Assembly: GCA_945893075.1 (NCBI GenBank)
Contig: CAMDDX010000025.1
Span: 1 to 37,812, forward strand
From: Planctomyces sp. SH-PL62
Lineage (GTDB): Bacteria; Planctomycetota; Planctomycetia; Planctomycetales; Planctomycetaceae
Length of the DNA stretch: 37,812 nucleotides
Reading direction: 5' to 3'
Below are positions 3,145-36,856 of this stretch, piece after piece. The first letter of the stretch is position 1; the number at the start of each line of letters is the position of its first letter. Position numbers and translations under genes: made by a program. The notes under the pieces were generated by a model that ran no database searches, was not told the origin of the DNA, and worked only from the letters and a program-made list of their open reading frames with translations.

Positions 3145-3464
3145 GACGCGCTCAATCCAGTTGAAGATGGAAGGGACCGTTCCAAGACGATCGGGCACGT
3201 CCGTGTGCAGTTGAAGGAGGCCGCATCCGCAGCCTGAAAACAGGTTGGCAAAAGTCGGTTGAAGAAACCAGTCCAAGATGGCCGGCTTCGATCCAACAGA
3301 CGGGCGAGGTGCTTGCAAACGCGATGTCGTCGATTGCAAAGCGGGCTCTTGTCGTATCGGTTTGTCGCCGTTTGGCCACGCTTGGCAGAAACGGCGCGAG
3401 GCAGGCTTGCACCTGCCTCACGCAAAATCCATTAAGTCACGTCCGTTGGTGGGTGTTGTCCCGC
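3145..3464. other. 320-bp spacer between DUF1501 and TPR genes
   Basis: No convincing gene. It contains one short hairpin repeat near the DUF1501 side. On the minus strand the TPR frame stays open for 65 codons upstream of its likely start, but that stretch has no signal-peptide sense, so I treat it as the 5' leader. A promoter for the TPR gene could lie here, but I see no clear -35/-10 pair. Confidence 0.5.
3398..3419. repeat. Solo hairpin repeat, GGCAGG-CCTGCC family
   Basis: Perfect 8-bp stem GAGGCAGG/CCTGCCTC with a six-base loop. It shares its core (GGCAGGCTT..CACCTGC) with each arm of the double element at 4747-4810, so it looks like a single-arm copy of that family. There is no T-run after the stem, so it is not a canonical terminator. 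Confidence 0.65.
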
Positions 3465-4718
3465 CTACGCGAATAGTTCCTTGATTGGCGTGCCGTCCTC
3501 GACGAGTTTGAACGGGCGTTGGAGCGGCGTCATGACTTTCTTATCCGGATCGATACCCAAGGCGTGACAGAAAGTGGCGTGCAGATTCGAAACCTTCACC
3601 GGGTTGTCCTTCGGTTCGTAGCCGTCTTCGTCGGACGAGCCGATGACCGTGCCACCCTTGATGCCGCCACCGGCCATGAAGCAGGTGAAGACGTTGGCCC
3701 AGTGATCGCGGCCAGCATCTTTGTTGATCTTCGGCGTGCGGCCGAATTCGCTGAGCATGACGATCAGGGTCTTCTTGAGCATGCCCGATTCGGCCAGGTC
3801 GGCGATCAGCGACGCGATCGCCGGGTCCATGATCTCGCCGTGAGCTTCCATCGCGGGGAAGTTGTTCATGTGCGTATCGAAGCCACCGCGGTTGACTTGC
3901 ACGAACCGTACGCCGGTCTCGACCAGTTGCTTCGCCGTGAGACAGCCACGGCCGAACGGCGTGTCGCCGTAGCGGTTCAACTGAGACGTCGGAACCTTGT
4001 CGAGTTCAAACGCCGCCAAGGCGGGGCTCCGCATCAGCGTCAGTGCTTCGTCGATTGAAGTCTGAGTCGACTTCAACTCTTTGTTGCTGCTCTTCTCGGC
4101 GAAGCGGCCGTTGAACTTTTCGAGCACTTCCAGGCGTTGGTTGCCACGTGCCGAGGCGATCCCTTCCGGGAACGACAGGTACGGGTCTTTCTCGCCGGGA
4201 GCACCGATGAAGTACGCCTCGCACTTCTGGCCGAGATAACTGGCCTTGGGTGCTCGGCCACTGATCGTGACGTAAGAGGGCAAGTCACCAACTTGCTTCT
4301 TCTCGTGAGTCACCACTGAGCCGAAGCCGGGATGAATCAAGTTGGCTGACGCCTGATAGCTAGTCTGCAACTGATAGGTGCCGCGGCCGTGATCGCCGTT
4401 GACTCCGGCGATCGAGCGGACCAACGCGCAGTGGTGCATGACCTTGGCGATCTCTGGGAAGATCTGCGAAATCTTCACACCTTCGACGGAGGTGTCGATC
4501 GGATCAAACTCACCGCCGGTGGGACGACCTGGTTTTGGATCCCAGGTGTCGATATGCGACATTCCTCCGCCATTCCAGAAGAAAATGACGTGCTCGGCCG
4601 TTGGCACATGATCGGTTCCACCAAACGCGATCAAGTCGCGCATCGAGAATCCGAGGATCGAAGCCAGCGACGCCTGCAACACAGCTCGGCGATTCGTTCG
4701 GTAATCCAGGCAGCCCAT
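3465..4718 (-). CDS. DUF1501 domain protein (sulfatase/phosphatase-like fold), Tat-type leader
   Basis: The protein has 417 residues, close to the usual DUF1501 length. The N-terminus carries a twin-arginine leader-like segment (TNRRAVLQASLASILG). Family motifs are clear: FFWNGGGMSHIDTWDPKPG near residue 47, the LSEFGRTPKIN segment, GRDHW, and MAGGGIKGG near the C-terminus. DUF1501 proteins belong to the alkaline-phosphatase/sulfatase-like superfamily and are greatly expanded in planctomycetes, almost always next to DUF1549/DUF1553 genes, as here. No substrate is established. The upstream partner gene lies 95 bases away across an inverted repeat. Family assignment is firm; catalytic role is inferred. 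Confidence 0.93.
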   Translation of the reverse strand: MGCLDYRTNRRAVLQASLASILGFSMRDLIAFGGTDHVPTAEHVIFFWNGGGMSHIDTWDPKPGRPTGGEFDPIDTSVEGVKISQIFPEIAKVMHHCALVRSIAGVNGDHGRGTYQLQTSYQASANLIHPGFGSVVTHEKKQVGDLPSYVTISGRAPKASYLGQKCEAYFIGAPGEKDPYLSFPEGIASARGNQRLEVLEKFNGRFAEKSSNKELKSTQTSIDEALTLMRSPALAAFELDKVPTSQLNRYGDTPFGRGCLTAKQLVETGVRFVQVNRGGFDTHMNNFPAMEAHGEIMDPAIASLIADLAESGMLKKTLIVMLSEFGRTPKINKDAGRDHWANVFTCFMAGGGIKGGTVIGSSDEDGYEPKDNPVKVSNLHATFCHALGIDPDKKVMTPLQRPFKLVEDGTPIKELFA

Positions 4719-4746
4719 GTCGAGTTCCTTTCTGAAACGGGTTAAT

Positions 4747-4810
4747 CGTGGGGCAGGCTTTCAACCTGCATCAACAGAGGGAGACGGGCAGGTTGAAAAC
4801 CTGCCCCACG
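4747..4810. repeat. Inverted repeat, GGGGCAGG/CCTGCCCC family
   Basis: Two 23-base arms (4747-4769 and 4788-4810) are complementary with one mismatch around an 18-base loop. Each arm is itself a small hairpin (GCAGG..CCTGC). It fills the junction between the DUF1549/DUF1553 and DUF1501 genes and ends three bases from the stop of the former. No T-run follows. Confidence 0.85.
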
Positions 4811-4813
4811 AGG

Positions 4814-7060: not shown

Positions 7061-7067
7061 GGGCAGA

Positions 7068-7074
7068 CTCCTCT
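7068..7074 (-). promoter_or_regulatory. Shine-Dalgarno AGAGGAG deciding a GTG start
   Basis: Read on the minus strand, AGAGGAG ends seven bases before the GTG at 7060. No comparable site precedes the ATG at 7108. This supports the shorter, signal-peptide-first form of the DUF1549/DUF1553 protein. Confidence 0.65.
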
Positions 7075-7210
7075 GGTGAAACGAAATGAAATCCCGTCCG
7101 AAACCCAACGCAATCTATAAAGGTTCGCTGAAATCACAAGACGAATAGGGAAAGTTTTATTGTTCGCTGTCTTTTCATCGACAGGTGCAGCCTGAAGTCG
7201 AGACGACGAA

Positions 7211-11393: not shown

Positions 11394-11457
11394 TCCTGAC
11401 TCGCGTCGATGGCCTCTTATCCGCCAGGACGTCACTGATTGTCACAAAAACAAACAA

Positions 11458-11613
11458 AATAGAAGCAAGTTGTGCGAAAATAGAAGCTGTTCGCGCGAAA
11501 ATAGAAGCTGTTTGCGTGAAAATAGAAGCTTATGACGTGAAAATATAGGCTGTTTGCACGATCTCAGAAGCAAATCTCGCGAAATAAGATGCTTTGATCG
11601 TCGAAAAAGACGC
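11458..11613. repeat. Eight-unit tandem repeat with an exact 21-bp period
   Basis: The core AATAGAAGC starts at 11458, 11479, 11500 and 11521 unchanged. It then decays at 11542 (AATATAGGC), 11563 (CTCAGAAGC), 11584 (ATAAGATGC) and 11605 (AAAAGACGC), always 21 bases apart. After that the register is lost. Most units carry a short A-run before the core. The minus strand reads as a seven-residue repeat of the LLFSREQ type, and the plus strand as AKIEAVR for the first four units. Confidence 0.85.
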
Positions 11614-11662: not shown

Positions 11663-11760
11663 GGGGTCAGGCACCGCAAAATTCAAAATTGGCGGAGTAT
11701 CGCTGAGTGTGTCCACAGGACTTCACTCCGCCAATTTTGAATTTTGCGGTGCCTGACCCC
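11663..11760. repeat. Perfect 36-bp inverted repeat, GGGGTCAGGCACCGC family
   Basis: Arms at 11663-11698 and 11725-11760 are perfectly complementary around a 26-base loop. The outer ends are GGGGTCAGGCACCGC and its complement; the inner part is AT-rich (AAAATTCAAAATTGGCGG). No transposase or ORF is inside. It looks like a non-autonomous palindromic element. It lies between two convergent genes, unlike most other repeats here. Confidence 0.92.
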
Positions 11761-13159: not shown

Positions 13160-13353
13160 GACAACGTCATTCCAAGAAAGCACAACGGGGCAATTGACGT
13201 GAGACGCGGCGAGAGTCTATCGGATTGGAGGACGATGGCACGTCTCCGAGTTCATTGGCTCGCAGGACGCCGCCACAAGACAGCATTGGATGCGGCCAGT
13301 ACGATTTCCGTTCGTTGGCGACTTCGTTCATTTGGATCAGGAGACGTGCCGTC

Positions 13354-14538
13354 GTGAATCATGCCTCAGTGACCTCGCTCATCAATCGCCGAACCTTGCT
13401 GCGGCAGTGGTCGGCCGGAGCCCTTGGTTTGATGTTCGTCAGCGGCAAGTTGCCGTCCGCGTTCGCCGCAGACGAGAGCCGTTTGCTCGTCCACTCGAAG
13501 GCTCCGATGAACGCCGAGCCGTCACTGCCCGACCTCGTGCGGTGGTGGGTGACTCCGGTCGAGTCGTTCTTTATTCGCAGTCACGGCAACACGCCGGAGA
13601 TCAATGCCGACTCATTCCGTCTGTCCGTCGAGGGCTTGGTCGAATCGCCGCTGATGCTGTCGCTGGCGGAACTCGGCCGCTTGGAACAACACGCGGTCAC
13701 AGCGACACTGACCTGCGCCGGCAATCGCCGCTCCGAGCACAGCCGCATCAAGCCGGTCAAAGGGGTCCAATGGCGTGAGGGTGCGATCGGCAATGCGAAA
13801 TGGCGCGGTGCTCGGCTTTCTGACTTGCTCAAAAAAGCGGGCGTGCGCGAATCCGCCAAGCATGTGTGGTTTGAAGGACTCGATGCGGTCGACGATGGCG
13901 GCAAGACGTTTGCGTTTGGCGGTTCGATTCCGCTGGAGAAAGCACTGCTCGATCGCGAATCGTCACCGGGTGCTCTGCTCGCCACGACGATGAACGACAA
14001 GCCGCTGACGGCCGATCATGGTTTCCCACTGCGGATGGTTGTGCCCGGTTACATCGGTGCTCGCAGCGTGAAATGGCTGAGCAAGATCGTCGTCAGCGAC
14101 CGTCCTTCGCCGAATCATTTCGTGGCCGATGTCTACAAGCTGGTCGATGAGGGAACGCTGTTGGAAGTCGCCGAAAGCGGACCGATCTATCGGATGCCGC
14201 TCAACTCCGCGATCTGCACGCCGACGGCCGGAGCCGCTTTGAAACCGGGCCGAGTCGAAGTCACCGGCTACGCTCTGCCTCCTGGCGTGCCGGGAGTTTC
14301 GATCCGCAAGGTCGAAGTCTCCGCCGACAGCGGCCGCTCGTGGACCGAGGCCAAGCTGACCTCCATGACATCGGAGTTCTGCTGGCAACTCTGGTCTGCC
14401 GAGATCTCTGTGAACTCAACGACGAAAGAATTGATCGTCCGCGCGATCGACTCACGCGGTGAGGCTCAGCCGGAAGTTGTGCGCTGGAATGCCAAAGGCT
14501 ACCTCTTCAACGCTTGGCATCACGTCCCTGTGAATTGA
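13354..14538 (+). CDS. Sulfite oxidase family molybdopterin-dependent enzyme, Tat-exported
   Basis: This protein of about 394 residues has a Tat leader (NRRTLLRQWSAGALGLMFVSG). The GTG start at 13354 has AGGAG ten bases upstream. The catalytic-type motif TATLTCAGNRRSEHS contains the molybdenum-ligand Cys near residue 121, and a further signature GVQWREGAIGNAKWRGARL follows. The C-terminal part has the immunoglobulin-like dimerisation domain seen in sulfite oxidases (TGYALPPGVPGVSIRKVEVS). It should carry a molybdenum cofactor and oxidise sulfite or a related substrate in the periplasm. It has no haem motif of its own, so the electron acceptor must be a separate protein. The next gene, dsbB-like, follows across an inverted repeat. 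Confidence 0.9.
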   Translation: MNHASVTSLINRRTLLRQWSAGALGLMFVSGKLPSAFAADESRLLVHSKAPMNAEPSLPDLVRWWVTPVESFFIRSHGNTPEINADSFRLSVEGLVESPLMLSLAELGRLEQHAVTATLTCAGNRRSEHSRIKPVKGVQWREGAIGNAKWRGARLSDLLKKAGVRESAKHVWFEGLDAVDDGGKTFAFGGSIPLEKALLDRESSPGALLATTMNDKPLTADHGFPLRMVVPGYIGARSVKWLSKIVVSDRPSPNHFVADVYKLVDEGTLLEVAESGPIYRMPLNSAICTPTAGAALKPGRVEVTGYALPPGVPGVSIRKVEVSADSGRSWTEAKLTSMTSEFCWQLWSAEISVNSTTKELIVRAIDSRGEAQPEVVRWNAKGYLFNAWHHVPVN

Positions 14539-14539
14539 A

Positions 14540-14594
14540 CGTAGCCGCACTCGCCAGAGTGCGGGCCGCACGCGTTCTGGCGAACGCGACTACG
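14540..14594. repeat. Inverted repeat, CGTAGCC-CTCGCCAGAG family (diverged copy)
   Basis: The left arm CGTAGCCGCACTCGCCAGAG and the right arm ending CGCGACTACG are complementary with several mismatches. Each arm is its own hairpin around GCC/GGC. It is a diverged relative of the element at 30653-30743, which shares CGTAGCC..CTCGCCAGAG. It starts immediately after the stop of the molybdoenzyme gene. Confidence 0.8.
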
Positions 14595-16083: not shown

Positions 16084-16131
16084 TCGAATTCCGGCTTGCT
16101 GTTGGCCGCGGGATTCATTCCGATACCCCGC

Positions 16132-19100
16132 ATGAATCCCATCATCTTCGCTCTGCGTCGTCCGATCACCGTCATGGTTGGGATCATCGCGGTAGTGCTG
16201 ACCGCGTTCGTCGCCGTGCGGCCGAAGGCGTTTGATGCCGTGCTGGCGAAAGTCGGTATCGAACTGCCGCTCAAGCGGATGCCGATCGACATCTTTCCCG
16301 CGCTGAACCTACCGGTGATCTACGTCTGCCAGCCGTATGGCGGCATGGACCCGGCTCAGATGGAAGGGCTGCTGACCAATTACTACGAGTACCATTTTCT
16401 TTACATCAACGGCATTCATCACGTCGAGAGCCGCAACGTCCAAGGGACGGCGTTGATGAAGCTCATGTTCCATCCGGGCACGAACATGGCCCAGGCGATG
16501 GCCGAGACCATCAATTACGTCAACCGCTCGCGAGCCATGATGCCTCCCGGCACCGTCCCGCCATTCGTGATGCGGTTCGATACCGGCAGCGTGCCGGTCG
16601 GCTACCTCGTCTTCTCCTCCGAGACGCGCACGATCGCCGAGATTTCCGACATGGCGCTGATGAAAGTGCGGCCGATGTTCTCCGCGTTGCCGGGTGTGAG
16701 TGCTCCGCCGCCGTTCGGCGGAAGCGCACGCAGCATCGTCGTGCGAGCCGATCCGGATCGCCTGCGAGCTTACGGCATCGCCCCCGACGACGTCGTCAAC
16801 GCGCTGGTGGCCGGCAACACCGTCAGCCCGTCCGGCAATCTGCGAGTCGGTGACAGCTATCCGATGGTCCCGACCAACGCGATGGTCAAAGACATTCGCG
16901 AACTCGGCAACATCCCAATCAAGGTCGGCGGCAGTCTCGGTCGGGAGACCGGACTGAGCGCTGGCGGAGCCGCCGCGATCGGCAGTGCGAGCACTGTCTA
17001 CCTGCGCGACATCGGCGTCATCGAAGACGCGGCCGACATCACGACCGGCTACTCGCTCGTCAACGGCCGCCGAGCCGTTTACATCCTCGCCACCAAACGG
17101 GCCGACGCTTCCACCATGAGCGTCATCGACGAAATCAAAGCCGCGATGCCCAGGTTCCGTGCCGAGGTTCCGCCCGACATCAACGTCTCGTTCGAGTTCG
17201 ATCAATCGCCGTATGTGACACGCGCCATCAACAGCCTCGCCACCGAAGGAGCGTTGGGAGCGATCCTCACCGGCCTGATGGTGCTCGTCTTCCTGCGCGA
17301 CTGGAGAAGCGCACTCGTCGTCGTGCTCAACATCCCGCTGGCGATTGCCGCCTCGATCGTCGGCCTGTGGCTCTGCGGCCAGACAATCAACCTGATGACC
17401 CTCGGTGGCCTCGCGCTGGCAGTCGGCATCCTGGTCGATGAGGCGACCGTCGAGATCGAAAACATCCATACGCAGATGCGGCACACAAACTCGATCGCCT
17501 GGGCCGTGCGGCTGGGCAACGCTCAAACCGCGATTCCGCGCTTGCTGGCGATGCTCTGCATCCTGGCCGTCTTCGTGCCGAGCTTCTTCATGCAAGGAGC
17601 CGCCCGCGAACTGTTCGTCCCGCTTTCGCTGGCGGTCGGCTTCTCGATGATCGCGTCCTACATCCTGTCGAGCACCTTCGTGCCAGTGGTCTCGACGTGG
17701 CTGTTGCGGACTTTGGAGTGCGGGGTGTCAGCCCCGCTTTTGCACGCATCGAAAGAATCCAAAGCGGGGCTGACACCCCGCACTCCAAAGTATGAACGCC
17801 TCGTCTCCCTTTTCGTCCGCCTGCGTTGGCTTGTCGTCCCCGCGTATCTGGCTGGCTGCGGAGTGACGCTCTTCTGGGCCAGTGGTCGGCTGGGCGTCGA
17901 GATCTTTCCAACCGTCGATGCCGGCGAATTTCGTTTGAGATTTCGCGCTTCCGACGGCACGCACATCGACAAGACCGAACAGATCGCGCTCGACATTCTC
18001 GACACTGTGAAGCAAAAGGTCGGCGAGAAGAACGTCGCGTTGACGCTCGGCTACATCGGCACCGTGCCGGCGAGTTTTCCGATCAATTCCGTCTATCACT
18101 TCTCGCGTGGGCCGGAAGAAGGGTTGTTGCGGATCGCCCTCAAACCGAACTCCGGCATCAGCACCGAGGCGATGAAAGAAGAACTTCGCAGTGAGTTTCG
18201 CAGCCGCTTCCCCAACGTGCGATTCTCGTTCGAGCCAGCCGACATCATCAGCGAAGTGATGAGCTTCGGCTCGGCAACGCCGATTGAGATCGCCGCACGC
18301 GGCGGCAATCTCGCCGAGAACCGCGAGTACATCGGCAAGGTTCAAGCCGCGCTCAGCAAGCTGCCGGCGATCCGAGACATGCAAGTTGCGCAGTCGCTCG
18401 ACTACCCGACCGTCGAGATCAAAGTCGATCGCGAGAAAGCCGGGATGAGCGGCACGACGATGTCGCAAGTCACTCGTTCGGTAGTCACCGCCACGTCGTC
18501 GAGCCGTTTTGTCGTGCCGAATTACTGGCCCGATCCGAAGACCGGCATTGGCTATCAAGTGCAGGTCGAAATCCCGCAACCGCAACTCGACAGTGTCGAA
18601 GACCTCGGAGCTGTCCCGATTCAACGTGGCAGCGGAAGCCACGCCGGCCAATCACTGTTGCTGCGCGATGTCGCCTCGCTCACGAACGCCACGACCCCCG
18701 GCGAATACGACCGCTACAACATGAAACGGGAGATCAGCCTCACCGCCAACATCGTCGGCGATGATCTCGGTGCCGTCTCGCAACAGATCACACACGCGCT
18801 TCACGCCGTCGCTCTGCAAGACGCCGAAGAGAAAGCGCTGACTCACAAAGAAGCCCAAGAAAAAGCCAAAGCTGCTGGTCTCACCGCGCCTGTTCCGAAG
18901 CCTGCGGTGATCCATCACGAACTCCGCGGCCAAATCCCGCCGCTGCGAGCGATCATGAACGGACTCGGCATTGGCCTGCTGCTGGCGGTGCTCGTGATCT
19001 TCCTGATTCTGTCCGCCAACTTTCAGAGCTGGCGATTGGCATTCGTGACGGTCTCAACCGCACCCGCCGTGATCACCGGCGTCGCGCTGTCGCTGCTACT

Positions 19101-19518
19101 GACCGGCAGCACGCTCAACATCCAAAGCTTCATTGGCGCGATCATGAGCCTCGGCGTCGCGATGGCCAACGCGATCCTGCTGGTGACGTTTGCGGAACAA
19201 CGCCGCCGCGAGTCGGTCAATTCACGCGATGCCGCCGTTTACGGCGCGGCCTCGCGTCTGCGAGCGATCGCGATGACCAGCGCCGCCATGCTGGCCGGCA
19301 TGTTGCCGCTGGCTCTCGGCCTCGGCGAATCCGGGCAGCAAACCGCACCGCTCGGACGAGCCGTCATGGGCGGACTGCTTGCCGCGACGTTCGCAACGCT
19401 GCTGATCCTGCCTGCCATCTTTGCGATTGTGCAATCGCGTGCCGGCATCAAGTCAGCGTCGCTCGACCCCGAAGACCCAGAGAGTGCTCACTTCGGAGTG
19501 GTCTCGATTTCCGATTAA
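16132..19518 (+). CDS. RND efflux transporter permease (HAE1/AcrB-like)
   Basis: This protein of about 1128 residues begins naturally at MNPIIFALRRPITVMVG; a TTG at 16096 is less likely. It has the duplicated RND plan: a first helix, a large periplasmic region (PYGGMDPAQMEG, PPPFGGSARSIVVRADPDRLRAYG), then helices 2-6 with GQTINLMTLGGLALAVG followed by VDEATVEIENIH near residues 416-446, where the Asp is the proton-relay position, and a second copy ending with AMANAILLVTFAEQRRR. It should pump substrates by proton antiport together with the adaptor and TolC genes downstream. A perfect 30-bp inverted repeat is embedded in frame between the two halves (17711-17790), adding about 27 residues in the cytoplasmic linker. 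A PIN-toxin pair separates it from the adaptor gene. Confidence 0.95.
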   Translation: MNPIIFALRRPITVMVGIIAVVLTAFVAVRPKAFDAVLAKVGIELPLKRMPIDIFPALNLPVIYVCQPYGGMDPAQMEGLLTNYYEYHFLYINGIHHVESRNVQGTALMKLMFHPGTNMAQAMAETINYVNRSRAMMPPGTVPPFVMRFDTGSVPVGYLVFSSETRTIAEISDMALMKVRPMFSALPGVSAPPPFGGSARSIVVRADPDRLRAYGIAPDDVVNALVAGNTVSPSGNLRVGDSYPMVPTNAMVKDIRELGNIPIKVGGSLGRETGLSAGGAAAIGSASTVYLRDIGVIEDAADITTGYSLVNGRRAVYILATKRADASTMSVIDEIKAAMPRFRAEVPPDINVSFEFDQSPYVTRAINSLATEGALGAILTGLMVLVFLRDWRSALVVVLNIPLAIAASIVGLWLCGQTINLMTLGGLALAVGILVDEATVEIENIHTQMRHTNSIAWAVRLGNAQTAIPRLLAMLCILAVFVPSFFMQGAARELFVPLSLAVGFSMIASYILSSTFVPVVSTWLLRTLECGVSAPLLHASKESKAGLTPRTPKYERLVSLFVRLRWLVVPAYLAGCGVTLFWASGRLGVEIFPTVDAGEFRLRFRASDGTHIDKTEQIALDILDTVKQKVGEKNVALTLGYIGTVPASFPINSVYHFSRGPEEGLLRIALKPNSGISTEAMKEELRSEFRSRFPNVRFSFEPADIISEVMSFGSATPIEIAARGGNLAENREYIGKVQAALSKLPAIRDMQVAQSLDYPTVEIKVDREKAGMSGTTMSQVTRSVVTATSSSRFVVPNYWPDPKTGIGYQVQVEIPQPQLDSVEDLGAVPIQRGSGSHAGQSLLLRDVASLTNATTPGEYDRYNMKREISLTANIVGDDLGAVSQQITHALHAVALQDAEEKALTHKEAQEKAKAAGLTAPVPKPAVIHHELRGQIPPLRAIMNGLGIGLLLAVLVIFLILSANFQSWRLAFVTVSTAPAVITGVALSLLLTGSTLNIQSFIGAIMSLGVAMANAILLVTFAEQRRRESVNSRDAAVYGAASRLRAIAMTSAAMLAGMLPLALGLGESGQQTAPLGRAVMGGLLAATFATLLILPAIFAIVQSRAGIKSASLDPEDPESAHFGVVSISD
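17711..17790. repeat. Perfect 30-bp inverted repeat inside the RND permease reading frame
   Basis: Arms 17711-17740 and 17761-17790 are perfectly complementary around a 20-base loop. The gene reads through it as RTLECGVSAPLLHASKESK followed by AGLTPRTPKYERL, with no stop or frameshift. The position is the cytoplasmic stretch linking helix 6 to helix 7 of the pump, a loop that tolerates insertions. Confidence 0.93.
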
Positions 19519-21628: not shown

Positions 21629-21933
21629 CCGTGGATGATTCGGCGCGAACCATTCCTCTGGCCCCATTCCTCTGCCGCAGTCTTTTCGGCAGAGGAATGG
21701 GGCCAGAGGAATTGGCTTCGGACCGCAAACTCAGCGGAAGCTGACAAGTCTGCCCGGCTTTCGTGACTGACACGACTGTTGTGAAAGGCAACTTCGGGAC
21801 TGGCGGAATCCTGCACACGGTCCACGCAGCTTGCCGATCCCGAACTCGCGGCCTTGTGCCTTGTCGCCTGCGGAACGGATTCCGCGCTCGGTATCGGCAA
21901 AAGCTGCCGCCGCGTTAGGGAGGACGCTGATTC
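21629..21933. other. 305-bp spacer between adaptor and TolC genes
   Basis: No convincing gene. It contains a long hairpin near its left end (21652-21712); the rest is ordinary GC-rich sequence with no motif I recognise. A GGGAGG sequence at its right end is the likely ribosome binding site of the TolC gene. Confidence 0.5.
21652..21712. repeat. Perfect 26-bp inverted repeat, ATTCCTCTGGCCCC family
   Basis: Arms 21652-21677 and 21687-21712 are perfectly complementary around a nine-base loop, and each contains ATTCCTCTG twice. It begins 24 bases after the adaptor stop. There is no T-run after the right arm, so it is not a standard terminator, though it could stabilise mRNA ends. Confidence 0.9.
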
Positions 21934-24155: not shown

Positions 24156-24940
24156 CGAAACAACTCACGACTGGAACCGCCGTTCGTTCCGCCTGCCGAA
24201 ACGGTTCCTGGACGGCACCGACCTGCGGGTTGGCCGACGGATTCGCACAAGCGAATTTCGTCGTGCTTCCCAAAGCACTGGCGTTCGACTTCTTGCTGTT
24301 CTGTCAGCGGAATCCAAAGCCTTGCCCGCTCCTCGATGTCACCGAGCCAGGCGATCCGAGACCGCATCATGTCGCACCGGATGCCGACTTGCGGACCGAT
24401 CTGCCGCGCTACCGAGTCTGGCGGAACGGCGAACTGGTCGATGAGCCAAAAGATATTGCTCGGTATTGGCAAGACGACTTCGTGAGCTTCGTCATCGGCT
24501 GTTCGTTCACGTTCGAGTCCGCGATGCTGCGAGCGGGCTTACCGGTCAGACACATTGAACTCGGCGTCAACGTGCCGATGTTTCGGACAAACATCGCGTG
24601 CCGTGCGGCCGGAGTGTTTCATGGACCGCTGGTGGTCTCGATGCGCCCGCTGACTCCGAGTGATGCAGTCCGAGCCGTGCAGATCACGTCGCGATACCCA
24701 TCGGTGCATGGTGCTCCGGTCCACATCGGCGATCCGTCGGCGATCGGCATCGCGGACATTTCACATCCCGACTTCGGCGATGCGGTGCCGATTCACGCCG
24801 GCGAGGTTCCCGTCTTCTGGGCCTGCGGAGTGACGCCTCAAGCAGCGATCATGGCCGCGAAGCCGGCGCTGGTCATCACACACAGCCCCGGCTGCATGTT
24901 CGTGACCGACATCCGCGACGAAGAGTTGGCCGTCGGATAG
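24146..24940 (+). CDS. DUF1445 putative hydro-lyase
   Basis: This 264-residue protein has the DUF1445/PF07286 layout: a short N-terminal segment, [20 protein letters not shown] with conserved Gly/Ala residues, [39 protein letters not shown] with the family Cys, and a C-terminal [17 protein letters not shown] containing another Cys. The domain is used in D-glutamate cyclase, and bacterial members are annotated as putative hydro-lyases; which reaction this one performs is not known. ATG 24146 (MTNPKQL) is favoured over 24092 because the upstream residues come from a repeat. It is divergent from the MOSC gene. Confidence 0.85.
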
Positions 24941-24975: not shown

Positions 24976-25278
24976 TCACTTTTGTGTTCGCCGATTGGCA
25001 GAGTTCAAAACATCGAGTGCGTCACGCTCCAAATCCTCCCAAGCGGTGGTTGGATGCACTGAGCGAATCTGAAAGTCGTCCCAGACCAGAGCGAAGACCG
25101 AGCACGGATCTCCGTCGCTGATGACCGGTTGGCTTTCCCAGTAACCATGACACGAACCGCGCGGAGGATCGTGCCGTAAGCGTGCGTGACACTCGCGGCA
25201 GATCAATCCCAGCGGGCTGGGTTGGTCTTCCGGCAATTGGTGAACGAGGCACTGAGTTTGAATGGCGACGTTTTTCAT
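24976..25278 (-). CDS. Small protein with a CxxCH motif, unknown
   Basis: This 100-residue protein, beginning MKNVAIQTQCLVHQL, contains a single ICRECHARL motif, the classical CxxCH pattern, but has no signal peptide, so haem attachment is doubtful and a zinc-binding role is possible. It also has two other Cys (SCHG, PCSV) and a Trp-rich segment (VWDDFQIRSVHPTTAWEDL). No family was recognised. A longer start at 25428 is open but less likely. It lies downstream of hslU in the same direction. Confidence 0.5.
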   Translation of the reverse strand: MKNVAIQTQCLVHQLPEDQPSPLGLICRECHARLRHDPPRGSCHGYWESQPVISDGDPCSVFALVWDDFQIRSVHPTTAWEDLERDALDVLNSANRRTQK

Positions 25279-25442
25279 CACGACGGTTCCGAGGTCATTG
25301 GTTCGGGACCAGCGTAACGTTGCTCGGAAGTGCGAAGAATTGGCGAAACACGCTGTGAGATGACATCGTTGAGATCGGGGATTGGGTACCGATTCAATCC
25401 GCAGTGTCGGAAAAGTCGTGTGAGGCATTGGTGTTGGAATAA

Positions 25443-25476
25443 CGGCTTTCGGCTGACGGCTATCAGCTTTCGGCCG
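25443..25476. repeat. Single repeat copy, GGCTGACGGCTATCAGC family
   Basis: CGGCTTTCGGCTGACGGCTA and the following TCAGCTTTCGGCC resemble one arm of the element at 32043-32145 (GGCTGATGGCTGTCGGC). It sits between the hslU stop and the next minus-strand gene. It can form a weak internal hairpin only. Confidence 0.55.
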
Positions 25477-25493: not shown

Positions 25494-26924
25494 TCAGAGG
25501 ATGAATTTGCTCAAGTCTTCGTTCTGCATAATGTCTTGCAGCTTCTTGCGGACGTAGTCGCCGTCGATGGCCAGCGATTTCTTCTTGATGTCGGGAGCGT
25601 CGAAGCTGATGTCTTCCAGCAGGCGTTCGAGGATCGTGTGCAGGCGGCGGGCTCCGATGTTTTGCGTCGTTTGATTGACTTGATGAGCGATGTCGGCGAG
25701 AGCCTCAATGCCGTCCTTTGTAAACTTGAGTTTGACGTTGTCGGCTCCGAGCAGGTCTTGATACTGCCGAGTCAGCGAGGTCTTCGGTTCGGTGAGGATG
25801 CGAATAAAATCGTCGCGTGTCAGCGGCAGCAGTTCGACACGGATCGGGAAGCGGCCTTGGAGTTCGGGCATCAGGTCGGAGGGTCGCGAGCGGTGAAACG
25901 CTCCGGCGGCGATGAACAGGACTTGGTCGGTCTTCACGTAGCCGTACTTGGTTTGCACCGTCGTCCCTTCGATGATCGGCAGCAGGTCGCGTTGGACCCC
26001 CTGACGGCTGACGTCCGGGCCGTGTGATTCTTCTCCACCGCAGATTTTGTCGAGCTCGTCGATGAAGATCACGCCGTGCGTTTCCGCCAGTCGCACCGCT
26101 TCTTCGTTGATCGCGTCCTTGTCCATCAGCGCCTCGAGTTCCTGCTCCAGCAAGATCTCGCGAGCCTTTTTCACCGGCGCGGAGCGGCTGGAGGTTTGCT
26201 TGGGGCCGATCTTCTCGAACAAGTTTTGCAGGTCCATTTCCATCTGTTCCATGCCGCCGATGTTCGACATGACGTGGACCGGCATCAGCCGCGATTCGAT
26301 CCGCAGTTCGACTTCCTTCTCTTCGAGTTCTCCGGCACGGAGCTTCTCACGAAATTTTTCGCGTGTGCGGCTGCTGCGGTCGGCGGCCCGTTCTTGTTCG
26401 GCCTCGGTCGGTTCATCGATCTCGTCGTCGTCCGATTCGCCCGAGGCGGCTTTGATGAGGAAGTCGAATGGCTGCGGCGCGCTACGCGACTTTTTCTTCT
26501 TCGACGGCGGCGCGGGGATCAGCAGATCCAGCAGCCGGTCTTCGACGCGGCGTTGGGCTTCCTCCTGGATCGAGATTTTCTTCTTGTCGCGAACCATCGC
26601 GATGGCGGCTTCGACGAGATCGCGGACCATGCTTTCGACATCGCGGCCGTAGTAGCCGACTTCGGTGTATTTGGTCGCTTCGATCTTGATGAAGGGCGCG
26701 TCGGTCAGCTTGGCCAGTCGCCGCGAAATCTCGGTTTTGCCGACGCCGGTCGGGCCGATCATGATGATGTTCTTAGGCGTGATGTCGCGGCGCACCTCTT
26801 CGGAAAGCTGCTGCCAGCGCCAGCGGTTCCGCAACGCAATGGCGACGGCACGTTTCGCCGCGTCTTGGCCGATGATGTACTTATCCAGTTCCGCGACAAT
26901 CGCGCGCGGTGTGAGTGCTCGCAC
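25494..26924 (-). CDS. hslU: HslU, ATPase subunit of the HslUV protease
   Basis: This 476-residue AAA+ protein starts at a GTG (MRALTPRAIVAELDKYIIGQ). Walker A is at residues 57-64 (GPTGVGKT), Walker B near 284-290 (GVIFIDE), with the sensor region LPIIEGTTVQTKYGYVKTD. The last residues EDLSKFIL match the HslU tail that activates HslV. The I-domain is enlarged by a charged insertion (about residues 140-190, Lys/Ser then Asp/Glu). HslU unfolds proteins and feeds them to HslV, encoded immediately upstream. The two genes are separated by a 31-bp inverted repeat rather than being closely coupled. Confidence 0.97.
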   Translation of the reverse strand: MRALTPRAIVAELDKYIIGQDAAKRAVAIALRNRWRWQQLSEEVRRDITPKNIIMIGPTGVGKTEISRRLAKLTDAPFIKIEATKYTEVGYYGRDVESMVRDLVEAAIAMVRDKKKISIQEEAQRRVEDRLLDLLIPAPPSKKKKSRSAPQPFDFLIKAASGESDDDEIDEPTEAEQERAADRSSRTREKFREKLRAGELEEKEVELRIESRLMPVHVMSNIGGMEQMEMDLQNLFEKIGPKQTSSRSAPVKKAREILLEQELEALMDKDAINEEAVRLAETHGVIFIDELDKICGGEESHGPDVSRQGVQRDLLPIIEGTTVQTKYGYVKTDQVLFIAAGAFHRSRPSDLMPELQGRFPIRVELLPLTRDDFIRILTEPKTSLTRQYQDLLGADNVKLKFTKDGIEALADIAHQVNQTTQNIGARRLHTILERLLEDISFDAPDIKKKSLAIDGDYVRKKLQDIMQNEDLSKFIL

Positions 26925-26949
26925 GGGGGTGACTCCAGGTTGAAGGATT

Positions 26950-27064
26950 GTTGTTGTGGCCGGTCTCCTGACCGAGCCACCGCGTTTGACCGAAGGTCTC
27001 CCGCCGCTTGGGGAGACCTGCGGTCGGTCGAACGTGGCTCGGTCAGGAGACCGGCCACAACAAC
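26950..27064. repeat. Perfect 31-bp inverted repeat, GGCCGGTCTCCTGACCGAGCC family
   Basis: Arms 26950-26980 and 27034-27064 are perfectly complementary, with a second, imperfect nested stem inside (GACCG..GGTCTCCC and GGGAGACC..CGGTC). The whole structure occupies nearly the entire gap between hslV (stop at 27069) and hslU (start at 26924). It should form one long hairpin in the hslVU mRNA. Confidence 0.93.
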
Positions 27065-27068
27065 GGCA

Positions 27069-27623
27069 TCAACGTTTGCAGGGGAATTCTTCGACGGTCA
27101 GATTGTCGTTCGTGTAGATGTCGAGTTCGGCGGCGATCCGCATGGATTCCTTGACGATCTCGCCCGCCGACAGCTTTGAGTTGCGAGCCAACGCTCGCGC
27201 CGCCGCGATCGCGTACGGCGAGCCGCTGCCGATGCCGAGCACTCCGTCGGTCGGCTGAATGACATCGCCGACTCCAGTGATCAGCAGCGAATGCTCGTCG
27301 TTGGCGACGATCAGCATCGCCTCCAGCCGCCGTAGCATTCGATCGGTGCGCCAATCGCGAGCCAACTCCGTCGCCGCACGCGGCACGTTGTTTGGATAGT
27401 CCTTGAGCTTGGCCTCGAACCGCTCCATCAGAGCGAACGCATCGGCCGTCGAGCCGGCAAACCCGACGAGCACTTTCTTCTCCAGGAGCCAGCGAATCTT
27501 CTTCGTGTCGGCTTTGAGGATTGTCGTGCCGTGCGTCACCTGCCCGTCGCCACCCATCGCGCACTGGCCGTTGTGCCGCACGCACAAGATCGTTGTGGAA
27601 TGCCATTCCGCCCGTTTGCTCAT
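27069..27623 (-). CDS. hslV: HslV, peptidase subunit of the HslUV protease
   Basis: This 184-residue protein of the proteasome-beta type starts [20 protein letters not shown]. The catalytic Thr of the TTIL context is preceded by a nine-residue extension, so maturation would need removal of a propeptide, as in the Bacillus type rather than the E. coli form that begins with Thr after Met. Other family motifs are [31 protein letters not shown] and [16 protein letters not shown]. HslV forms a double ring capped by HslU. It lies directly upstream of hslU, the normal order. Confidence 0.97.
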
Positions 27624-27705: not shown

Positions 27706-27738
27706 AAAAGCCCGGCTTCTTTGAGAAGCCGGGCTTTT
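27706..27738. terminator. Bidirectional intrinsic terminator
   Basis: Perfect 15-bp stem, AAAAGCCCGGCTTCT with its complement, around a three-base loop, with A and T runs on both sides, so it can end transcripts from either strand. On the minus strand it follows the DUF3500 gene and precedes hslV, so hslVU likely has its own promoter downstream of it. Confidence 0.93.
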
Positions 27739-27763
27739 CATTGCCATACCCCAGCCGATCTCG

Positions 27764-29004: not shown

Positions 29005-30654
29005 ATGCGATGGATTCTGCGCATCCACTTGGCCGCGCTGTGCCTGCTGTCCACAGTCGTTTCCATGAGCGGGTCAGAGTTGCCCTCGGCGGATTTGCCG
29101 ATCGAGCAAGTCATCGACCAATTCACTCAGCAACGATTGGATGCGGAGAAAGTCACAGCCGCTCCGCAGGCGGGAGACGCCAATCTGTTGCGGCGGCTGA
29201 TGCTCGACGTGGCGGGACGCATTCCGACTCCCGCAGAGGCCACGGCGTATGTCGCGAACAGTTCGGCGGCGAAGCGTGTGGAACTGGTGGATCGTTTGCT
29301 GGCGAGTCCTGATTTCGTCTGGCATCAGAGGAACGAACTCGACCGGATGCTGCTGCCGAACAAGCCGAACGACGGAGACTTTCGCAAGTACCTGCTGTGG
29401 GCGGTCAAAGAGAATCGGTCGTGGGAGACAATGTTCCGCGACATGCTGATTGGCGATGAAGCGGACGAGAATCGGAAACCCGCGACGACGTTCATCAAGT
29501 CGCGGGCACGCGATCTCGACGACATGTTGAACGACACGGCCATCCTCTTCTTCGGAGTCAACGTGACCTGCGCGAAGTGTCACGATCACCCGCTGACCCC
29601 CGAATGGAAGCAGCATCATTACTTCGGCATGGCGTCATTCTTCAGCCGGACCTATGTGACGAAGAAGAACTTGCTGGCCGAGCGGCCGTTCGGCGAGGTG
29701 AAGTTCAAATCGAAGCGGAAGGACGACACGAAGGGGGAGCAGACCGCGAAGTTCGAGTTCCTCACCGGCGCGGTGATCGACGAACCGGTCGTCGAACGTT
29801 CGGCCGATGACATCAAGAAGATCGAAGAGACAATCAAGGCGGCGATGCAGAAAGACGATGCTCCGCCGCCGGAAAAGCCGTCATTCAGCCCGCGTGAAAG
29901 ATTGGTCGAAGTCGCTTTGCGATCCGAAGACAACCGCTTCTTCGCTCGGAACATCGTCAATCGAGTTTGGGACCGGTTCTTTGGACGCGGACTCGTGCAT
30001 CCGGTCGATCAATTGCACGCGGCCAACGCGCCGTCGCATCCGGCGTTGCTCGATTGGCTAACGCGAGACATGGTTGCGCATGGCTACGACCTCAAGCGAT
30101 TGATTCGCGGCATCGTGCTCAGCCGCGCGTATTCGAGGACGAGCGAATGGACTGCCGGTTCTCTGCCACCGGAACCGGCTCTTTTCGCGGTCGCGAAGGT
30201 CAAGCCGCTGACGCCGCGGCAGTATGCGGTGTCATTGCTGATCGCGAGGCAAAGTCCGGACCAGTGGCTGGCGCTCGACAAGCCGGAGGAGTGGATCGCT
30301 CGCCGCGAGCAACTGGAAAATGGATCGAACGGATACGCGGCCTTCTTCGAGATGCCCGGCGAGAATTTTCAGGTGGCCGTCGATGAGGCGTTACTGTTCT
30401 CCAACAGTAAGCGGATTGAAGACGAACTGCTCCGAGATTCGAAGACCGAGATCGTTGGATACCTCAAATCACTTCCCGACAATCCCGCGGTGATCGAAGC
30501 GGCGTTTCAAACGATTTGTTCGCGGCCACCTCGCGACGACGAGCGAGCGGCGATTGATAGTTACTTGCAAAGCCATTCAGCCGACCGAGTGGCGGCGATC
30601 CGGCAAGTCGTGTGGGCGTTGCTCACCGGTCCAGAGATGCGGTTCAGTTTTTGA
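29005..30654 (+). CDS. DUF1549 and DUF1553 domain protein, shorter second copy
   Basis: This 549-residue protein has a signal peptide (RWILRIHLAALCLLSTVVSM), DUF1549 with LLRRLMLDVAGRIPTPAEA and a haem-type motif TCAKCHDHPLTPEWKQHHYFG, then DUF1553 with FFARNIVNRVWDRFFGRGLV and HPVDQLHAANAPSHPALLDWL. It is some 200 residues shorter than the copy at 4814-7060, mostly because the linker and C-terminal part are smaller. It precedes a DUF1501 gene, as in the first locus. Function is presumed extracellular and degradative, but unproven. Confidence 0.93.
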   Translation: MRWILRIHLAALCLLSTVVSMSGSELPSADLPIEQVIDQFTQQRLDAEKVTAAPQAGDANLLRRLMLDVAGRIPTPAEATAYVANSSAAKRVELVDRLLASPDFVWHQRNELDRMLLPNKPNDGDFRKYLLWAVKENRSWETMFRDMLIGDEADENRKPATTFIKSRARDLDDMLNDTAILFFGVNVTCAKCHDHPLTPEWKQHHYFGMASFFSRTYVTKKNLLAERPFGEVKFKSKRKDDTKGEQTAKFEFLTGAVIDEPVVERSADDIKKIEETIKAAMQKDDAPPPEKPSFSPRERLVEVALRSEDNRFFARNIVNRVWDRFFGRGLVHPVDQLHAANAPSHPALLDWLTRDMVAHGYDLKRLIRGIVLSRAYSRTSEWTAGSLPPEPALFAVAKVKPLTPRQYAVSLLIARQSPDQWLALDKPEEWIARREQLENGSNGYAAFFEMPGENFQVAVDEALLFSNSKRIEDELLRDSKTEIVGYLKSLPDNPAVIEAAFQTICSRPPRDDERAAIDSYLQSHSADRVAAIRQVVWALLTGPEMRFSF

Positions 30655-30743
30655 TCGTAGCCACGCTCGCCAGAGCGTGGGGAGACACCGATCAGCCTAG
30701 TCGAAGTTCAATCGCCCACGCTCTGGCGAGCGTGGCTACGATC
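30653..30743. repeat. Perfect 29-bp inverted repeat, CGTAGCCACGCTCGCCAGAG family
   Basis: Arms 30653-30681 and 30715-30743 are perfectly complementary around a 33-base loop. Each arm is itself a hairpin (CCACGCTC GCCA GAGCGTGG), giving a two-hairpin, BIME-like shape. The left arm includes the last two bases of the DUF1549 stop codon. It fills the junction with the DUF1501 gene. Confidence 0.93.
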
Positions 30744-30760
30744 GCATTGGAGACCTTCGC

Positions 30761-32032: not shown

Positions 32033-32042
32033 CTCTTGGTTT

Positions 32043-32145
32043 CGGCTGATGGCTGTCGGCTGAAAGCTGATGGCTGTTATCTCAAACTGACCGTCTACGA
32101 ATTTGAATTGACGGCCATCAGCTTTCAGCCGACAGCCATCAGCCG
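32043..32145. repeat. Perfect 32-bp inverted repeat, GGCTGATGGCTGTCGGC family
   Basis: Arms 32043-32074 and 32114-32145 are perfectly complementary around a 39-base loop; each arm is built of direct GGCTGAtggCTG-type subrepeats. It lies 11 bases after the DUF1501 stop and 26 bases before the WD40 ATG. One diverged single copy is at 25443-25476. Confidence 0.92.
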
Positions 32146-32170
32146 GGCAAATTGATTCAGAAAGTTCATC

Positions 32171-33208: not shown

Positions 33209-33399
33209 AAGTCCGAGAAGCCCTGCGGCTGATTGAGTCGGACGGCTGGTTCCTGATTCGAACGACGGGAAGTCATCGTCAATTCCATCATCCGACTAAA
33301 CCGGGAACCGTGACAGTGGCGGGGCAACCGAATAAGACTGTGCCGCCCGGAACGCTCAACAGCATTCTCAAGCAAGCCGGACTTAAGGGAGACGATTGA
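33205..33399 (+). CDS. hicA: HicA-family mRNA interferase toxin
   Basis: This 64-residue protein has the HicA (dsRBD-like) fold with the catalytic His of GSHRQFHHP at about residue 24, and the basic helices MKVREALRLIESDGWFLIRT and LNSILKQAGL. HicA cleaves mRNA and is held by HicB, whose gene follows. Overlaps the end of the WD40 gene by four bases and hicB by one base. Confidence 0.93.
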   Translation: MKVREALRLIESDGWFLIRTTGSHRQFHHPTKPGTVTVAGQPNKTVPPGTLNSILKQAGLKGDD

Positions 33400-33614
33400 T
33401 GCGTTATCTCGTGATCTATGAGCCGAGCGATGATGGCTTCGGAGCCTACGTTCCCGATTTGCCAGGCTGCATCGCCGTGGGAGATACGCGAGCGGAGGTC
33501 GAGCAACTGATCCGCGAGGCGATCGCTCTGCATGTGGCCGACATGCGTGCGTCCGGCCAATCGATTCCGGCACCGACGACTCAAAGCGAACTCGTAGAAC
33601 TTCAAGAGGTCTGA
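33399..33614 (+). CDS. hicB: HicB-family antitoxin
   Basis: This 71-residue protein with the HicB fold starts MRYLVIYEPSDDGFGAYVPD and continues LPGCIAVGDTRAEVEQLIREA. HicB neutralises HicA and often represses its own operon. The start at 33399 (ATG overlapping the hicA stop) is preceded by AAGGGAG at suitable spacing. The usual C-terminal DNA-binding domain is missing, so this looks like the short HicB form, which may need a partner for DNA binding. Confidence 0.9.
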   Translation: MRYLVIYEPSDDGFGAYVPDLPGCIAVGDTRAEVEQLIREAIALHVADMRASGQSIPAPTTQSELVELQEV

Positions 33615-33664
33615 GTATTCGGCGAGATGCCGTCGAGCAACCCACTTTCCACAGGAGCTGTCTC

Positions 33665-35008: not shown

Positions 35009-35128
35009 TTTGTGATGACTGGTCTCGCCACGTTTGTTGGAATTTGGCTAACGTCCCGCCCCTTGTGTCGGGGGGATTGTGCGCCTCGACCAGTCGATTG
35101 ATCTCACTCTCACAGCGAGCGGCCACGG

Positions 35129-35968
35129 ATGGCCTCGGTTCCGGCATTGAAGCCGACAAATACGCTGGTGCATCAGCTTGGCCAGACGGTCGTGGAGATG
35201 ACCGTTGCTGTCGGCGATCTCGCGTTGTTTGGCGCACAGGTCGTGCGACTCATTCTGACCGGGCTGCCTCGGCGCGGTGTGATGACGCAGACGTTTTACG
35301 AAATTGGAGTGCGGTCGATACCAGTCGTGGGAGTGACGGGGTTATTCATCGGGATGGTCTTGGCCATTCAGGCGTATGACCAGTTTCACTTCCTGCACAT
35401 GGAGACGAAGCTCGGCGCGGCGATCAACGCTTCGCTGGTGCGTGAGCTGGGGCCGACACTCGCGGCGGTGATGCTGGCGGGGCGAGTCGGCTCGGCGATG
35501 GCGGCGGAACTTGGCACGATGCGTGTCACCGAACAGATCGACGCGCTCAAAGCGCTCGGAGCGAATCCGATTCAATACTTGGTCGTGCCCCGTTTCCTGG
35601 CGTGCTTCCTGTTGATCCCGCTGCTGACGGCGATTGCCGATGCGATCGGGATTCTCGGCGGCTGGATGATCGGTTCGCAGGTGTTGGGGATCGACAGCTT
35701 TTATTGGTGGCTGCACTCGAAGGAGTTCATCGCGATCTACGACGTGCAGTGCGGCCTGACGAAGAGTTTTTTCTTTGGCGGAGCGATCGCGTTGGTCTCG
35801 TGCTACCAGGGATTTCATTGCGGAGCCGGAGCCGAAGGGGTTGGTCAAGCCTCGACACGCTCGTTCGTGTGGTCGTTCATTGCGATTCTGGTGCTGGACT
35901 TTTTCCTGGGCGTGTTTCAAAGCGGGCTGTACTACGTCTTATGGCCGGACCCGGTTTCGTTGTTTTGA
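35129..35968 (+). CDS. mlaE: MlaE-family lipid transport permease
   Basis: This 279-residue membrane protein has the MlaE (DUF140) plan: an N-terminal segment, [39 protein letters not shown] and [20 protein letters not shown], then [20 protein letters not shown] and a final helix. It should form the membrane part of an ABC transporter that moves phospholipids between membranes. The ATPase (35991) and an MCE protein (36875) follow in the same direction. Confidence 0.93.
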
Positions 35969-35990
35969 ACGGTACGGATTCACTCAATTC

Positions 35991-36827
35991 ATGAGCATTG
36001 ATTTCTCACATTTCGATTTGTCGGCAGCCGCATTCGGCGAGCCTGTGATCGAACTGCGCGGCGTGTCGCGGGTGTTTGGGACACAGACTGTGTTGCGAGA
36101 CATCTCGTTGACGGTGCAGCGTGGCGAGACCTTGGCGGTCATTGGTGAATCGGGCTGCGGCAAAAGCGTGATGCTGAAGATCATGATGAAGATGCTCGAA
36201 CCATCGCACGGCGACGTGGATTGGTTTGGCAAGGCGCTGCGGCAGCGGAGCGAGCGTGATATTCATCGAGACCGGTTGAAGTTCGGGTATTTGTTTCAGA
36301 GCGCCGCCTTGTTCGACAGCATGACCGTGTTTGAAAACGTCGCGTTCGGCCTGCGGCACAACACCGGCATGAGTGACTCGCAGATCACCCAGATCGTCCA
36401 TGAGCGGCTACGGGATGTTGGGCTACCGCAATCGGCGTCCGACAAAAAACCAGCGGAGTTATCGGGAGGGATGAAGAAACGAGTGGGACTGGCTCGCGCA
36501 CTGGCTTTGAATCCGGAGATCGTTTTGTACGACGAACCGACCACCGGGCTCGATCCGATCATGACCGACATCATCAACGAGCTGATCTTGCGGACCTGTG
36601 AGCGTCAGCCTGTCACCAGCATTGTCGTCACGCACGAGATGTCCACGGTTCGCAAAGTGGCCGATCGTGTCGTGATGTTGTACCCGTTGAGCCGGCTGCA
36701 GCCGGACGAACCTCAGATCGTCTTCGTCGGCACGGCCGCCGAAGCATTTTCCTCTTCCGATCCGCGCGTCTCGCAGTTCGTTCACGGGCAAGCCCGCGAA
36801 CGATTGCAGGAACTCGCGGCGGCGTAG
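35991..36827 (+). CDS. mlaF: MlaF-family ABC transporter ATPase
   Basis: This 278-residue ATPase has Walker A at residues 52-59 (GESGCGKS), the Q-loop Gln near residue 103, the signature LSGGMKKRV near 157-165, Walker B IVLYDE near 177-182 and an H-switch His in VVTHEMS near residue 215. It drives the MlaE-type permease encoded just upstream. The frame is open further upstream, inside mlaE, but that part is not coding-like; ATG 35991 was chosen. Confidence 0.95.
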
Positions 36828-36856
36828 CTTGGCTCTCCAGAGCCGAGCGTGGCTAC
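36824..36856. repeat. Short hairpin of the GTAGC..GCTAC family
   Basis: GTAGC and GCTAC flank a palindromic GGCTCTCCAGAGCC, giving one hairpin. It resembles a single unit of the 30653-30743 family. It begins inside the last codons of the MlaF gene and covers its stop codon. Confidence 0.65.

Follow-up and report, generated by a model that had tools for sequence, protein, structure and literature searches.

Hairpin repeats of several families at gene ends and at in-frame sites within genes of Planctomyces sp. SH-PL62

A contig of Planctomyces sp. SH-PL62 (CAMDDX010000025.1 of assembly GCA_945893075.1, taken whole as a window of 37,812 nucleotides) carries hairpin-forming inverted repeats of dissimilar sequence, most of them at the junctions between genes, and raises the question of what such different hairpins have in common. 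An earlier note on this DNA offered two answers, a role in mRNA processing or stabilization between operon genes and a mobile element that prefers the 3' ends of genes. The comparisons described here make it likely that the hairpins are non-autonomous mobile elements, inserted and lost recurrently at sites where they are tolerated.

A hairpin is present at every one of the eleven places listed in the earlier note. Seven of them, labeled here as families A to G, are long inverted repeats that are nearly perfect: their arms measure 24 to 44 nt and pair at 91-100%. The remaining four (3398-3419, 14540-14594, 25443-25476, and 36824-36856) are shorter hairpins, with predicted folds of -22.0, -33.8, -17.8, and -21.2 kcal/mol, respectively, calculated without a shuffled control. 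The features are as follows, with REP standing for repetitive extragenic palindrome.

3398..3419, short hairpin GAGGCAGG/CCTGCCTC between genes 727-3339(-) and 3465-4718(-), from sequence and fold
4746..4811, family C inverted repeat CGTGGGGCAGG...CCTGCCCCACG, arms of 24 nt, in a co-directional junction
11663..11760, family A inverted repeat GGGGTCAGGCACCGC..., perfect arms of 36 nt, in a convergent junction
14540..14594, two diverged GTAG-type REPs in inverted order, directly 3' of the stop of 13225-14538(+)
16096..19518, plus strand, RND (ACR_tran) efflux pump gene by Pfam, with an in-frame hairpin
17710..17791, family E inverted repeat TTTGGAGTGCGGGGTGTCAGCCCCGCTTT, in frame within the RND pump gene
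21652..21712, family F inverted repeat GGCAGAGGAATGGGGCCAGAGGAAT, in a co-directional junction
25443..25476, short hairpin of the GGCTGA-word type between 24230-24940(+) and 25494-26924(-), convergent by our gene calls
26950..27064, family D inverted repeat TTGTGGCCGGTCTCCTGACCGAGCCAC, between the stop of 27069-27623(-) and the start of 25494-26924(-)
30653..30743, family B inverted repeat GTAGCCACGCTCGCCAGAGCGTGG, whose first bases complete the stop codon of 29005-30654(+)
32043..32145, family G inverted repeat CGGCTGATGGCTGTCGGCTGAAAGCTGATGGC, in a co-directional junction
36824..36856, GTAG-type hairpin that provides the stop codon (TAG) of 36045-36827(+)

By our gene calls, which used a hexamer model of our own (636 genes, 84% coding), eight of these hairpins are co-directional (3398, 4746, 14540, 21652, 26950, 30653, 32043, and 36824), two are convergent (11663 and 25443), and one lies in a gene (17710). 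The division into nine, one, and one given earlier requires a 150-aa open reading frame at 24976-25428(-) to be a gene, and the gene caller did not keep it. Within the window, Rfam gave no match at its gathering threshold, and a tRNA search found none. A further short perfect hairpin at 27706-27738, absent from the earlier list, lies between two minus-strand genes and has runs of A and T at its flanks, with the look of an ordinary intrinsic terminator. Loose tandem-like copies of AAAATAGAAGC (11460-11600) adjoin the family A element. The family D element stands between a proteasome-like peptidase gene and the Clp/AAA ATPase gene that follows it (25494-27623), a pair that we take to resemble HslV-HslU.

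Repeats of this kind are real and far beyond chance. The source genome is a draft of 7.57 Mb in 484 contigs, of which the window is one, and the sample, 837,812 bases drawn entirely from its 43 largest contigs, consisted of the window and 40 further 20-kb stretches. It contains 268 long inverted repeats, seven of them in the window, against one in an order-3 Markov simulation of the same stretches, and plain scaling of this density gives about 2,400 repeats for the genome. At up to three mismatches, the 21-base family A head matches the genome 56 times in forward and 54 times in reverse orientation, against 0 and 0 for a reversed-pattern control, and among the matches listed these are mostly inverted pairs 77 nt apart; by clustering, family C has further members elsewhere in the sample. 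Copies beyond the window, which the earlier note had proposed to look for, are therefore many and dispersed. Its division of the hairpins into several unrelated families stands as well. Single-linkage clustering of the sample gave 52 clusters, 29 with at least two members, a rough number given that clustering by shared 10-mers merges the unrelated families B and G; the largest clusters were left unused. By pattern, 86 of the 268 repeats have a GTAG or GTGG head (some of these matches arise by chance), 28 have GGGGTC, 25 are of the GGAGTGC type, and 129 have none of these.

Read from their sequences, families B, C, and D have the anatomy of REPs, with a GT[AG]G head beside a palindrome (GTAG in B, GTGG in C and D), and their inverted doublets would be REPINs. 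This head was not found in A, E, F, or G. Family E appears to be a REP-like palindrome with another head and family A to be of the terminal inverted repeat (TIR) type, while F and G are provisionally assigned by form only.

The placement of the elements relative to genes is biased. There are 136 elements in co-directional junctions, 37 in convergent junctions, 32 in divergent gaps, 52 in genes, and 11 at ends or in unclear positions. This amounts to 0.31 elements per co-directional junction (136/439), 0.49 per convergent junction (37/76), and 0.40 per divergent junction (32/80), or to 1.99, 3.69, and 1.22 elements, respectively, per kilobase of element-free spacer. The three intergenic classes differ from the available space (chi-square P = 1.2e-5) and, more weakly, from the number of junctions (P = 0.035). 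The earlier observation that hairpins are missing from divergent gaps is correct for the three gaps of the window, a small sample, but not for the 838-kb sample, where 32 of 205 intergenic elements are divergent. Avoidance of divergent gaps was thus rejected per junction (0.40 against 0.31 for co-directional junctions) and kept in a weak form per base.

Within co-directional junctions, 65 of the 136 elements (47.8%) overlap the upstream stop or lie at most 10 nt from it, against 25% under uniform placement, and 13% lie at most 10 nt from the downstream start, against 25% expected. For the 98 of these elements that have at least 40 nt of free space, the values are 34% against 10% near the upstream stop and 1% against 10% near the downstream start. 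Convergent junctions show no crowding to the nearest stop above uniform placement. The stop codon itself is overlapped by 23 of the 136 co-directional elements and is TAG in 12 of these 23, compared with 161 of 611 called genes. Placement is therefore nonrandom with respect to gene direction and gene ends, although less strict than first described. The suggestion of a mobile element preferring 3' ends was largely right, because the hairpins are dispersed, are in some cases tied to Y1 transposases, are present or absent between species, and lie close to upstream stops; it concerns, however, many elements and not one. A T-rich tract follows the hairpin in 2 of the 136 co-directional elements (29 of 4,000 random positions), and in this respect the elements do not resemble intrinsic terminators. 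Since copies also occur in frame within genes, a function at junctions is not the common feature of this class.

The sites within genes were compared with same-genus relatives. The relatives G002 to G007 and G009 to G011 are drafts of 210 to 640 contigs, and the close relatives are, by name, planctomycete metagenome genomes; the pieces of our genome compared with them are 4 of 41 (the window and stretches L017, L022, and L048), partly chosen as element-rich. Ten of the sample's 40 well-supported in-gene elements, with up to nine relatives each, gave 69 pairs. Family identity was decided by shared words of 8 or 9, a rule that errs both ways. By this k-mer rule the relative has a repeat of a different family in 27 pairs, of the same family in 10, and of the same family in decayed form in 6, while 13 pairs have an insert without a repeat and 13 are empty by a length rule. 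Eight of these 13 come from one clean site, L017:18792, where the insert is absent in 8 of 8 relatives; at L048:19179, two relatives classed as empty (G002 and G009) still hold an insert, which in G002 includes an inverted repeat. As to the family rule, G003 at L017:11244 is called different by its arms alone, yet it shares the loop of our element, and G010 at 17710 is probably called the same through chance words. The totals of different-family pairs (27, 30, or 28) differ between analyses because the rules differ.

The reading frame is conserved at these sites, with length differences that are multiples of three in 65 of the 69 pairs (P = 2e-26 against one third), and the host genes include those for the RND pump, a squalene-hopene cyclase, a polyprenyl synthetase, and a DabA transporter. 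Called genes in these loci of the relatives have a background of 0.143 repeats per kb, so that by our arithmetic a chance repeat at a given site is expected in a few per cent of cases. At least two copies in a pool of 1,493 kb were found for 20 of 28 different-family repeats, against 6 of 60 random 27-mers. Most of the swapped repeats are thus independent arrivals from dispersed families rather than a single insert that has diverged. The squalene-hopene cyclase gene (L017, 9368-11557) contains three in-frame hairpins, each with a different family in at least one relative by the k-mer rule. At L017:9772, L017:11244, and L048:19179, relatives carry inverted repeats of short words such as GAGTGGGGAGTG, perhaps another kind of element. 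Different families at orthologous in-gene sites were not recognized in the parts of the literature covered by the search, PMC2635572 included.

The family E element at 17710 maps to approximately residue 538 of the RND pump protein. Orthologues from eight same-genus loci are 84-89% identical, and the linker encoded at this site differs in nearly all of them (G003 and G007 are alike). In solved relatives the site aligns with a stretch after a membrane segment, presumably the cytoplasmic loop that joins segments six and seven. The linker measures 75-115 nt in 75 of 81 sequences (our own and 80 named relatives), and an inverted repeat was detected in 8 of the 81, namely, our own, L214, L216, and L217, whose proteins are 87-89% identical, and the more distant L238, L257, L271, and L285. 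The latter four suggest that other lineages may have been hit independently. L271 is titled Spartobacteria. A second variable stretch among six orthologues lies at about residues 1037-1047 (19204-19236), with extra residues in some relatives.

Turnover of elements is also observed at intergenic sites. Orthologous junctions were compared in 193 pairs over 42 of our 61 junctions, those with an alignable relative, and "empty" here means that no repeat was detected by a finder that misses some hairpins (such as that of G005 at 30653, seen by eye). Co-directional pairs comprise 38 occupied in both genomes, 49 in ours only, 13 in the relative only, and 51 in neither; the corresponding numbers are 1, 5, 4, and 6 for convergent and 5, 11, 6, and 4 for divergent pairs. 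Among the 38 co-occupied co-directional pairs, 22 differ in family and 16 agree (23 and 15 by an alternative rule), and two or more families occur at 12 of the 20 co-directional junctions occupied in our genome. Some window elements are shared: that at 14540 is near-identical in G004 and G006 and diverged in G007, and the family F element at 21652 is also present at the orthologous site of G010. At 26950, inspection by eye revealed the same family in G007, an element with GTGGGGCAGG in G004, G005, and G009, a GTAG-type element in G003 and G010 (both "same" by the word rule), a decayed-looking stretch in G002, and none in G006. The element at 30653 is absent in G004 and G010, where the upstream frame extends by four codons to a TGA that precedes the next start by three bases; in the window, it is the element that completes the stop. 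A tight junction was thus opened at the upstream gene's end by the element or by the event that introduced it, with the start region of the next gene now downstream of the element.

Transposases of the Y1 family (PF01797) are candidates for moving these elements. Our genome has eight matches, seven above the cutoff, and at least one match occurs in 11 of the 12 genus members searched (1 to 16 each, none in G011), for a total of 91. Thirty-five of these loci were inspected, and the flanks were tested for 29, as the script found no Y1 frame in the other 6. Repeats of the same family lie within 400 nt on both sides of 5 of the 29 Y1 genes (L013, L014, L015, L156, and L161), compared with 3 of 294 control genes, which were other genes of similar length from the sample of our genome. 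At L013, GGGGTCGGG is found on both sides of the Y1 gene and inside it. The repeats at the L014 gene have GGGGTCAGG, a sequence common to family A, those at L015 have TTGGAGTGCGG, with the same head as family E of the window, and those at L156 are GTAG repeats. The only sighting of family A itself at a Y1 gene is an arm within the open frame of L173, at a contig end, and a repeat related to family C lies about 1.3 kb from the Y1 gene of L010. At 75% ungapped identity, the window families gave no matches in our eight Y1 loci other than C-like and G-like ones. For six of the seven Y1 proteins scanned, the best match is the NCBIfam REP-associated tyrosine transposase (RAYT) model, above the cutoff only for L156, and the seventh, L009, fits the IS200/IS605 model. 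The L013 protein combines Y1_Tnp with Bac_DnaA_C, a DnaA-type helix-turn-helix, of which L014 has only a subthreshold match. The motif GGGGWSAS is fitted by GGGGTCAG in family A and L014, and GGGGTCGG of L013 is one base off. These findings agree with the descriptions of RAYTs and TIRYTs in the available parts of PMC3733652 and PMC6006769.

Taken together with published work on such enzymes, these data suggest that HUH/Y1 transposases (IS200-like, RAYT, and TIRYT) most likely move the elements as single-stranded hairpins. Insertion would be wide, and the elements would be kept where they are harmless, that is, at or just after a gene end yet upstream of the next start region, in convergent gaps, and in tolerant protein stretches where they remain in frame. 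With a high supply of insertions and few tolerated sites, the same in-gene site may be hit, lost, and hit again by other families in sister species. Tolerance, rather than targeting guided by hairpins, would then set the sites.

Several observations weigh against this account. When permuted within bins of spacer length, co-directional co-occupancy is 38 against 30.8 expected, which is nonsignificant (P = 0.068); turnover is therefore claimed for the intergenic sites, and a hot spot is not. The few convergent and divergent pairs run the opposite way (1/6 against 4/10 and 5/16 against 6/10, respectively). Simple gain and loss would predict an empty state at 17710, L017:11244, and L017:13161, and none was seen among eight relatives each. 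The word-like repeats at some swapped sites (GAGTGGGGAGTG and similar) have few or no other copies. On the side of the transposases, mere closeness is no evidence, with a repeat of any kind within 400 nt of 17 of the 29 Y1 genes and of 163 of the 294 control genes, and no convincing cognate for B, C, D, F, or G was found among the 35 of 91 genus Y1 loci inspected. Across 11 of the 12 genomes (G008 was left out, and G001, G005, G007, and G011 were sampled on less than 80 kb), the number of Y1 genes does not correlate significantly with repeat density (rho 0.51, P = 0.11), in a comparison confounded with genome size, which is the better predictor (rho 0.63, P = 0.04). Repeats occur at 0.154 per kb even in G011, a 91% complete genome in which no Y1 match was found.

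Selection could instead keep an RNA hairpin at operon junctions for stabilization, processing, or uncoupling, with its sequence free and mobile families serving as raw material. The elements do adjoin stop codons and leave the downstream start region free, a hairpin is kept at several swapped junctions, and many REPs are held to be transcribed and to act as RNA in the available part of PMC3733652. Nevertheless, no repeat was detected in the relative for 49 of 87 own-occupied co-directional pairs (by the finder that misses some), and in 19 of these 49 the relative's spacer is shorter by at least 80% of the element. The loss of significance for co-occupancy under length control, the 52 of 268 elements inside genes, the 32 in divergent gaps, and the T-rich tail in only 2 of 136 also make this explanation unlikely. 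Assembly errors, in which repeats are wrongly joined in fragmented metagenome assemblies, come to mind with genomes of 210 to 640 contigs, as assemblers err at repeats, but we give them hardly any credence when the in-gene length difference is divisible by three in 65 of 69 pairs and both flanks remain aligned in several separate assemblies.

A single old insertion per site could also have diverged into different-looking sequences, as concluded for Rickettsia RPE-4/6/7 in the available part of PMC3767692. The sites are the same, the lengths are similar, and the loop common to our element and G003 at L017:11244 probably reflects a single insertion with changed arms. As a general explanation this is very improbable, since 20 of the 28 different-family hairpins have at least two copies in the pool, on which divergence in place would not converge; the other 8 may still have arisen in this way. 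Replacement guided by the hairpins themselves, in which a new element inserts into the loop or arm of a resident hairpin that then decays, so that the slot persists, would account for the lack of an empty state in 24 pairs at three sites, and REPs are known targets of several insertion sequence (IS) families (PMC1525189, as far as available). Among 30 different-family pairs, a script flagged six in which old and new may stand together, and three were accepted: G005 at 17710, with an outer and an inner hairpin, G009 at L017:10664, and G010 at L022:7832. Nesting is not plainly common, however, with 20 nested pairs of different sequence among 525 repeats, whose loops span 25.7 kb in 1.33 Mb; several of these pairs seem to be pieces of a single composite element, and by our arithmetic there is no excess once intergenic placement is allowed for. 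Nesting as a general preference is thus unsupported, guided replacement seems improbable, and we favor the re-use of tolerated sites. A bolder possibility, which we consider doubtful, is that hairpin slots exist as fixed positions, including in-frame stretches of core enzymes, that outlast any family, with each incomer landing on the resident hairpin and displacing it.

The elements share most with REPINs and GTAG REPs of RAYTs, as described in the available parts of PMC3733652 and PMC3116915: both consist of short palindromes headed by GTAG or GTGG that form inverted doublets, occur in many copies and in several families per genome, lie mostly between unidirectional or convergent genes, can supply the TAG stop of a gene, and are in some cases found inside genes. 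Planctomycetes are already named there (PMC3733652). The present case differs in that no cognate RAYT was found for B, C, and D and that orthologous in-gene sites hold different families in sister species, which was not met in the parts of published REPIN accounts available. Different REP classes are known to flank orthologous RAYT genes (PMC3686654, in part), and REPIN excision has been observed in Pseudomonas (PMC3116915), so that an emptied site could be used again. The TIR repeats of TIRYTs (TnpA_Y1 subclass 2.1) correspond in their GGGGWSAS head, inverted pairs, and Y1 protein with a C-terminal helix-turn-helix, here L013 (PMC6006769 and PMC3733652, in part), but here copies also lie in frame within the Y1 open frame (L013 and L173). 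Rickettsia palindromic elements (RPE) likewise occur in frame in unrelated proteins, at solvent-exposed parts; there, differing groups in orthologues are explained by one diverged insertion (PMC3767692, in part), whereas repeated families account for 20 of the 28 swapped hairpins here. The RPE trait of one family per site across orthologues does not hold here, with 27 of the 69 pairs different and 10 the same by the k-mer rule. Palindromes also serve as hot spots for IS insertion (PMC1525189, in part), but in the present genomes it is another hairpin element that arrives, and no clear enrichment of nesting is seen.

REPs have traditionally been interpreted as either selfish DNA or RNA signals, and the replacement of families at the same sites helps to separate these readings, particularly within genes, where sites are re-occupied without a junction function. 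The genus offers a natural series for measuring insertion, loss, and tolerance. If hairpin slots did exist, position and form would be inherited while sequence is exchanged, and proteins would gain species-specific linkers from unrelated mobile DNA. Independently of such slots, these planctomycetes join Rickettsia as a second example of mobile palindromes that contribute linkers to proteins.

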